From positions 806,001 through 870,000 of the forward strand of contig NZ_VTRS01000001.1 in the NCBI RefSeq assembly GCF_008641065.1: a stretch of 64,000 bases of DNA, in the 5' to 3' direction. This document shows positions 32,042 through 33,246 of this stretch, piece by piece. Each line of letters opens with the position of its first letter. Positions within the stretch are counted from its first letter, which is position 1. A model generated the notes under the pieces. That model worked only from the letters and a program-made list of their open reading frames with translations. It had not been told where the DNA came from and made no database searches. The position numbers and the translations under genes were made by a program. Source of the DNA: Rhabdaerophilum calidifontis. GTDB lineage: Bacteria; Pseudomonadota; Alphaproteobacteria; Rhizobiales; Beijerinckiaceae.

Positions 32042-32722
32042 CTACTTCTTCTTGCGGAACGCTTCGAGGCTCACGACCTCGGCGCCGCCGGCCGGAATCT
32101 CGGCGCGCGGCTCCTCCGCCTCGGACGTGGCTGGCGGGGCGGGGGGCGGGGCGGCTGCCTTGTCCGCGGCGCGGGCGCGCGGCTTGCGTGCGGGGGGCTC
32201 CGCCTTCTCGCCCGCCGCCGGTTCGAGCTTCGGCTCGGAGGCGGCCCCGCGTTTCGCCTTGACGCCCTTTTCCAGGGTCGAGATCGCGGCGAGGTTCTCC
32301 TTGACGCCGGGCTCGGCAGCCTCCGGGACGGGGTCGTTGTCAGCCTGCGCCTCATCGGGCGTGAATTTGAGGCCGAACTGGACGGACGGGTCATAGAAGC
32401 CGGTCAGCGCGCTGAAGGGCACCAGCAGCCGCTCCGGCACACCGCCAAAGGAGAGACCGACCTCGAATCCCTGCTCGCTGACCGCGAGATCCCAGAACTG
32501 ATGCTGGAGGACGATCGTCATCTCCTCCGGATATTTCTCGCGCAGCCGCGTCGAGAGCCGCACGCCGGGCGCCTCGGAGCGGAAGGTGATGTAGAAATGA
32601 TGCTCGCCCGGCAGCCCCTGGCGCGCGGCCTCGGCCAGCACCTTGCGCACGACGCCGAGCAGCGCCTCCTGCACCATCACGTCGTAGCGGATCAGGTCTT
32701 CGGTCGGGGGCTCTTGCGTCAT
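32042..32722 (-). CDS. sspB: ClpXP adaptor protein SspB (alpha type)
   Basis: Adaptor that binds ssrA-tagged proteins and hands them to ClpXP. The folded domain is in the first ~150 residues: LIRYDVMVQEALLGVVRKVLAEAA, HHFYITFRSEAPGVRLSTRLREKYPEEMTIVLQHQFWDL, FEVGLSFGGVPERLLVPFSALTGFYDPSVQFGL. A disordered Ala/Pro/Glu-rich tail follows and ends in AEVVSLEAFRKKK, the ClpX-binding tail. ATG 32722 gives the family N-terminus; the longer frame from 32833 runs through a repeat. The tmRNA gene lies immediately upstream on the same strand. Confidence 0.93.
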   Translation of the reverse strand: MTQEPPTEDLIRYDVMVQEALLGVVRKVLAEAARQGLPGEHHFYITFRSEAPGVRLSTRLREKYPEEMTIVLQHQFWDLAVSEQGFEVGLSFGGVPERLLVPFSALTGFYDPSVQFGLKFTPDEAQADNDPVPEAAEPGVKENLAAISTLEKGVKAKRGAASEPKLEPAAGEKAEPPARKPRARAADKAAAPPPAPPATSEAEEPRAEIPAGGAEVVSLEAFRKKK

Positions 32723-32765
32723 GGTGCTTCGGTCTGGGCGGCTTCGGGTCCGACGGGTTTGTGGG

Positions 32766-32809
32766 GCCGATGGTCTGTGGGCCGATGGTCTGTGGGCCGA
32801 TGGGTCTGC
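32766..32809. repeat. 15-base tandem repeat upstream of sspB
   Basis: GCCGATGGTCTGTGG occurs twice perfectly (32766-32780, 32781-32795), followed by a third partial copy with one inserted base. It lies in the sspB 5' region, between the tmRNA terminator and the sspB start, so it could alter the leader of the sspB mRNA. Confidence 0.85.
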
Positions 32810-32859
32810 TCTAGCTCGGACGGAGCCGATCATGGCCGATTCCCGCGCGCCCCGCGCGT

Positions 32860-32890
32860 AAAAAAACCGGCGACGCGGCCCGGATCCGGG
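32860..32890 (-). terminator. Probable terminator of the tmRNA transcript
   Basis: On the minus strand a GC-rich stretch containing CCGG, nine bases and CCGG is followed directly by seven T (32866-32860). The stem is short and imperfect, but the T run at the 3' end of the tmRNA gene supports the role. Confidence 0.5.
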
Positions 32891-32892
32891 CG

Positions 32893-33211
32893 GAAAGTGG
32901 CAGGGTTCTGTTGCCAGGCCCCTGCCGGCCCCGCCTCACGGGGCTAACCGGGAGGACTTAGGTTCGGTGTTTCAAACCGCGTTACGCGGCCTGAGCAACC
33001 GGAGCATAGTTGTCATTCGCAACTATAGGTTTGACCCGATAACGGCGGTATCATGCCGAGCGAAAGTCCACCCTTTACGCCCTCGTCGATCCTGTTTCGC
33101 CCCCGCCGGAGCCCCGCATGCGGGGCTCGGGTGGAGGCGCCGGGTACCGCCCCCGGGTCCGATGGGTTTATTCCGATAGCCGTTTATCGCCATAGTCGCC
33201 ACAAGGGCGAC
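32893..33211 (-). ncRNA. ssrA: Circularly permuted two-piece tmRNA (alpha-tmRNA)
   Basis: Rescues stalled ribosomes by trans-translation. Read on the minus strand, the acceptor piece comes first and ends with the T-arm CCGGG-GGCGGTA-CCCGG and the acceptor strand CGCCTCC plus ACC (33139-33130). A 20-base perfect palindrome (33128-33109) forms the removed intervening segment. The coding piece begins GGGGGCG (33104-33098), pairing with CGCCTCC over 7 bp including one G-U, then AACAGGATCGACG, the conserved tmRNA 5' segment. The tag frame is GCG at 33020 to TAA at 32982, encoding ANDNYAPVAQAA. Two downstream hairpins (CCCCG/CGGGG and GGCAGGG/CCCTGCC) precede the 3' end. Outer ends are estimates. 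The terminal A of CCA is not encoded. Confidence 0.93.
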
Positions 33212-33217
33212 ACCTTC

Positions 33218-33246
33218 AATATAGGCGCACTTGCGGCGGATTTGAA
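33218..33246 (-). promoter_or_regulatory. Promoter candidate for ssrA
   Basis: On the minus strand TTCAAA (33246-33241) and TATATT (33223-33218) are spaced by 17 bases, placing the start near 33211, just before the acceptor piece. Confidence 0.5.

Follow-up and report, generated by a model that had tools for sequence, protein, structure and literature searches.

Transfer-messenger RNA (tmRNA) acts together with SmpB in the rescue of stalled ribosomes and the tagging of their product (PMC3985003, PMC11915505), and is charged with alanine according to a published abstract. In the two-piece form, tRNA-processing enzymes cut a precursor to give the two-piece RNA (PMC3985003, PMC11915505), RNase Z being one of two enzymes suggested for the task (PMC3985003). 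The two-piece tmRNA of Caulobacter is functional (Keiler et al. 2000, as cited in PMC3985003), two-piece tmRNAs of phages are already known (PMC9004378), and 11,946 unique permuted tmRNA sequences have been described (PMC11915505). The CCA position of permuted tmRNAs does not always encode CCA (PMC11915505, figure 1 legend). Here, we analysed a 64-kb stretch of the Rhabdaerophilum calidifontis genome (contig NZ_VTRS01000001.1, positions 806,001 to 870,000; hereafter the window, to which all coordinates refer), which carries a gene of this kind, and compared it with its described relatives.

Identity of the ssrA gene

The minus strand of the window encodes a circularly permuted, two-piece tmRNA gene (ssrA) at 33221-32891. 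A first-pass annotation of the stretch had proposed such a gene on this strand and asked for a covariance search with the Rfam alpha-tmRNA model (RF01849, alpha_tmRNA). This search returned 300.5 bits (E = 3.6e-88) over model positions 1-355 of 355, against a gathering threshold of 50 bits. The model RF04321 (tmRNA_permuted) was also covered in full (151.6 bits, E = 1.5e-31), and ARAGORN called the same gene (32891-33221) as a permuted tmRNA (tmRNA*) and read its tag as ANDNYAPVAQAA. RF01849 has no other match in the genome. The model of one-piece tmRNA (RF00023, gathering threshold 47 bits) gave five matches across the whole genome, none above its threshold (best 43.2 bits); all five are of tRNA length and lie at places also matched by the tRNA search. 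The predicted fold of 33213-32870 has a z-score of -3.60, and none of 100 shuffled sequences folded equally well.

The permuted order, acceptor half, then spacer, then coding half, was confirmed both in the sequence and by ARAGORN. RF01849, RF04321, ARAGORN and the sequence place the acceptor piece at 33130..33213 (5' end approximate), where an upstream stem and the T-arm are followed by the acceptor 3' strand CGCCTCC (33139-33133), the discriminator A (33132) and the CC of the acceptor end (33131-33130). A spacer of 25 bases (33105..33129), expected to be removed, separates it from the coding piece at 32896..33104 (3' end approximate: RF01849 reaches 32896 and ARAGORN 32891), which consists of the acceptor 5' strand GGGGGCG (33104-33098), the tag frame and a 3' region. 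As the first-pass annotation had described, the two ends pair over 7 bp; the pairing holds at 7/7 positions, one of them a G-U. The ends of the pieces would thus lie at 33130 and 33104, as expected from the acceptor stem. The tag frame, also read correctly from GCG to TAA, lies at 33020-32982 (positions 202-240 in the ARAGORN gene model) and is short, with an alanine resume codon, small residues at its end and a stop (ANDNYAPVAQAA*). Shadow open reading frames over ssrA were rejected because the RNA match spans the same stretch.

The partners of a working tmRNA were sought in the same genome. SmpB (PF01668, E = 1.9e-58), ClpX (659.4 bits) and an RNase P RNA (289.2 bits) are all encoded away from ssrA. 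So is a PF01743 protein; among the NCBIfam models it matches CCA tRNA nucleotidyltransferase best, with 170.9 bits, below the cut-off of 290. Among relatives, RF01849 matched 57 of the 61 genomes sampled from the order, this one among them, and all 53 with a completeness of 90% or more and a contamination of no more than 5%. Ahead of the gene, a consensus scan found one promoter-like pair, TTCAAA - 17 nt - TATATT (33218..33246, minus strand, 9/12 matches), against a mean of 0.2 in shuffled sequences. A UAUAUU block also stands ahead of the RNA in the RF01849 consensus.

By analogy with the tmRNAs that have been studied, we can propose how the gene would work. A single precursor would be transcribed from a promoter near 33246-33218, in the order acceptor and T-arm part, hairpin spacer, and coding part with the tag. 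The spacer would be cut out, and the 7-bp acceptor stem would keep the two resulting pieces together. The acceptor piece, which its sequence predicts to end in ACC, would then gain its last A from a CCA-adding enzyme and be charged with alanine. Together with SmpB, the tmRNA would enter stalled ribosomes and add (A)ANDNYAPVAQAA to the nascent chain, and SspB, encoded next to ssrA, would pass the tagged protein to ClpXP for degradation.

Three results weigh against this account. Four of the 61 genomes of the order lack an RF01849 match, all four being less than 90% complete; the best NCBIfam match to RNase Z in the genome reached only 42.7 bits, below the cut-off of 292.95; and a simple scan for a terminator found none. 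We found nothing that speaks against the tmRNA identity. What we observed for this ssrA is its sequence, its match to the structure models, its tag and partner genes, its conservation, and the covariation in its spacer. The locus is an ordinary alphaproteobacterial two-piece ssrA, real and well formed, and of a kind already known. We regard it as practically certain that this is the ssrA of the cell, a permuted tmRNA that would be processed to two pieces and would act in the tagging of stalled products with SmpB, SspB and ClpXP.

The spacer hairpin

A perfect palindrome of 20 bases, which the first-pass annotation had also noticed between the two halves, is present at 33128-33109 and can form an 8-bp hairpin; 24 bases of the spacer fold with -16.5 kcal/mol. 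The comparison started from 110 loci, 30 from the order and 80 named ones; the latter were fetched by their sspB and are the best 80 of at least 507. The counts given below for 98 loci leave out 12: seven named loci without an ARAGORN tmRNA, L113, in which we found no coding half, and four loci whose tmRNA the pattern missed (L014, L046, L055 and L067).

In the six named relatives that match best (L035-L040), 24 bases likewise follow the three CCA positions. We could thus assemble seven distinct 24-base spacers: that of the locus, five distinct ones from L035-L040, and that of L027, from the same family. The set was picked for equal spacer length, and L027 was aligned with a gap. Across these spacers the stem is paired in 92.7% of the cells, a value reached by none of 500 shuffles. 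The covariation score is 0.619, against 0.213 in the shuffles, none of the 500 reaching the observed value, and sliding the stem gives 0.161 at best. Five of the eight stem pairs carry a change on both sides. All eight pairs form in five of the seven spacers, and seven and six pairs in the other two. In the wider collection, a simple rule classes 81/98 spacers as closing into a hairpin. In 78/98 loci the third and second bases before the coding half are GG, a possible partner for the CC at the acceptor end, and the predicted fold of the locus contains such a pairing.

These patterns support the view that the palindrome is a spacer hairpin, which compensatory changes have probably preserved among close relatives; with few and related spacers, selected for their length, they amount to support and not to a large test. 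The palindrome could instead be a separate element, a repeat or a protein-binding site that takes no part in the fold of the precursor RNA. Such an element would explain why it is perfectly symmetric at the DNA level, and it would fit with one of the five measures, the number of stem pairs changed on both sides (5/8), being reached by 58/500 shuffles. However, the genome holds no second exact copy, spacers of the same length keep their pairing while their bases change, and most spacers in the wider collection close as well. We regard a separate element as very improbable. A genome-wide repeat was in any case rejected, as beyond the single exact copy there is one other place, with three mismatches.

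The unencoded terminal A and the tag

The base after the CC of the acceptor end is a C (33129, minus strand). Hence, the final A of the tmRNA CCA is unencoded at this locus. The first-pass annotation had taken this feature and the exact tag to be specific here, and neither is. Of the 98 loci, 70 have an A at the third CCA position, 20 a C, seven a T and one a G, so that 28/98 lack an encoded A (own included), while the discriminator A and the CC are kept in 98/98. Within the 30 loci of the order there are 22 CCA, seven CCC and one CCT. Tag ANDNYAPVAQAA was found in 7/30 loci of the order, own included, and in 20 of the 73 named loci with an ARAGORN tmRNA (80 examined), and is therefore common in the group and not special. 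A literature search for the tag string ANDNYAPVAQAA matched no paper.

A missing terminal A is what one might expect of a decayed, non-functional copy with a working gene elsewhere in the genome, an idea that we dismiss as next to impossible, given that the sole RF01849 match in the genome is this full-length, high-scoring one, that no RF00023 match exceeds its cut-off, that the A is also unencoded in other loci which all keep the CC, and that the tag frame is intact.

What is of some use in this trait is the contrast with the tRNAs of the same genome. They are represented by 42 loci, from 42 RF00005 matches and 42 distinct ARAGORN sequences, and 42/42 have an encoded CCA. The tmRNA is thus an exception in its own genome: the sole RNA of the 43 checked whose last CCA base is unencoded. 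Bacteria with this contrast would allow the action of a CCA-adding enzyme to be tested on a single natural client. A tentative interpretation, which we think has some chance of being right and a greater chance of being wrong, is that the tmRNA is the one RNA here that needs a CCA-adding enzyme for its making and not for repair, that the precursor holds the CC in place through the GG pairing while the A drifts, and that the supply of CCA-adding enzyme could set the amount of usable tmRNA. We also asked if there is pairing between the third CCA base and the spacer base that is fourth from the end. It occurs in 39/98 loci: 8/8 with a T or G as third base, most of them close relatives, 31/70 with an A and 0/20 with a C. 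Hence, there is no general rule.

Gene neighbourhood and comparison with known permuted tmRNAs

The next downstream gene is sspB (32042..32722, minus strand like ssrA; PF04386 SspB, E = 1.6e-49), which encodes the adaptor for ssrA-tagged proteins and is followed by fumarase C. The listed open reading frame reaches 32833, but translation more likely starts from the ATG at 32722, because the alignments to many relatives begin only around residue 35-47. The best-matching named relatives of this sspB are from Beijerinckiaceae and Rhabdaerophilum, within Hyphomicrobiales. On the other side of ssrA, the opposite strand carries a DUF2853 gene, thymidylate synthase and dihydrofolate reductase. The gene that writes the tag and the one for the adaptor that reads it thus lie close together, within 32042-33221 of the window. 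By eye, we also noticed that ccatcggcccacaga-like units form a short direct repeat at about 32758-32803, after the tmRNA and ahead of the probable sspB start.

The same arrangement, sspB downstream of the tmRNA, occurs in 30/30 loci of the order (own included); these are the best-scoring 30 of the 57 matches and hence no random sample. The named loci were fetched by sspB and are therefore unusable for counting this linkage. Four of them (L044, L045, L053 and L077) have no ARAGORN tmRNA near sspB though more than 2,300 bases lie ahead of it, unlike in L051, L052 and L071. The gene may have moved, there may be a gap, or the call may have been missed.

A related gene was seen in a phage. Rhodobacter phage RcRudolph (OP009285.1) encodes a complete permuted tmRNA gene at L168:3437-3851, with tag ANDNVRMDAQALAA (RF04321, 103.6 bits; RF01849, 94.8 bits). 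It overlaps a frame annotated as a hypothetical protein (L168:3425-3760). Its T-arm and acceptor end share 31 identical bases with our locus, and its final A is encoded. We rejected the reading of this 31-base match as a phage attachment site because it lies in a whole permuted tmRNA of the phage.

How does the locus compare with described systems? With the alphaproteobacterial family of RF01849 it shares a full-length match, the permuted order, the acceptor stem, the T-arm and the upstream UAUAUU block. It differs from that model in its spacer sequence and in the unencoded final A of CCA, two traits that vary among relatives. With the permuted family of RF04321 (PMC11915505) the match extends over the whole model and there is no notable difference. 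The two-piece tmRNA of Caulobacter crescentus comes from a permuted gene like this one, and RF01849 also matches the control genome of Caulobacter vibrioides. The function of the C. crescentus tmRNA has been demonstrated, whereas that of our locus is predicted. The tag of C. crescentus reportedly differs from that of the locus. Seen beside these systems, the ssrA of this genome is one more ordinary entry in the permuted tmRNA family.
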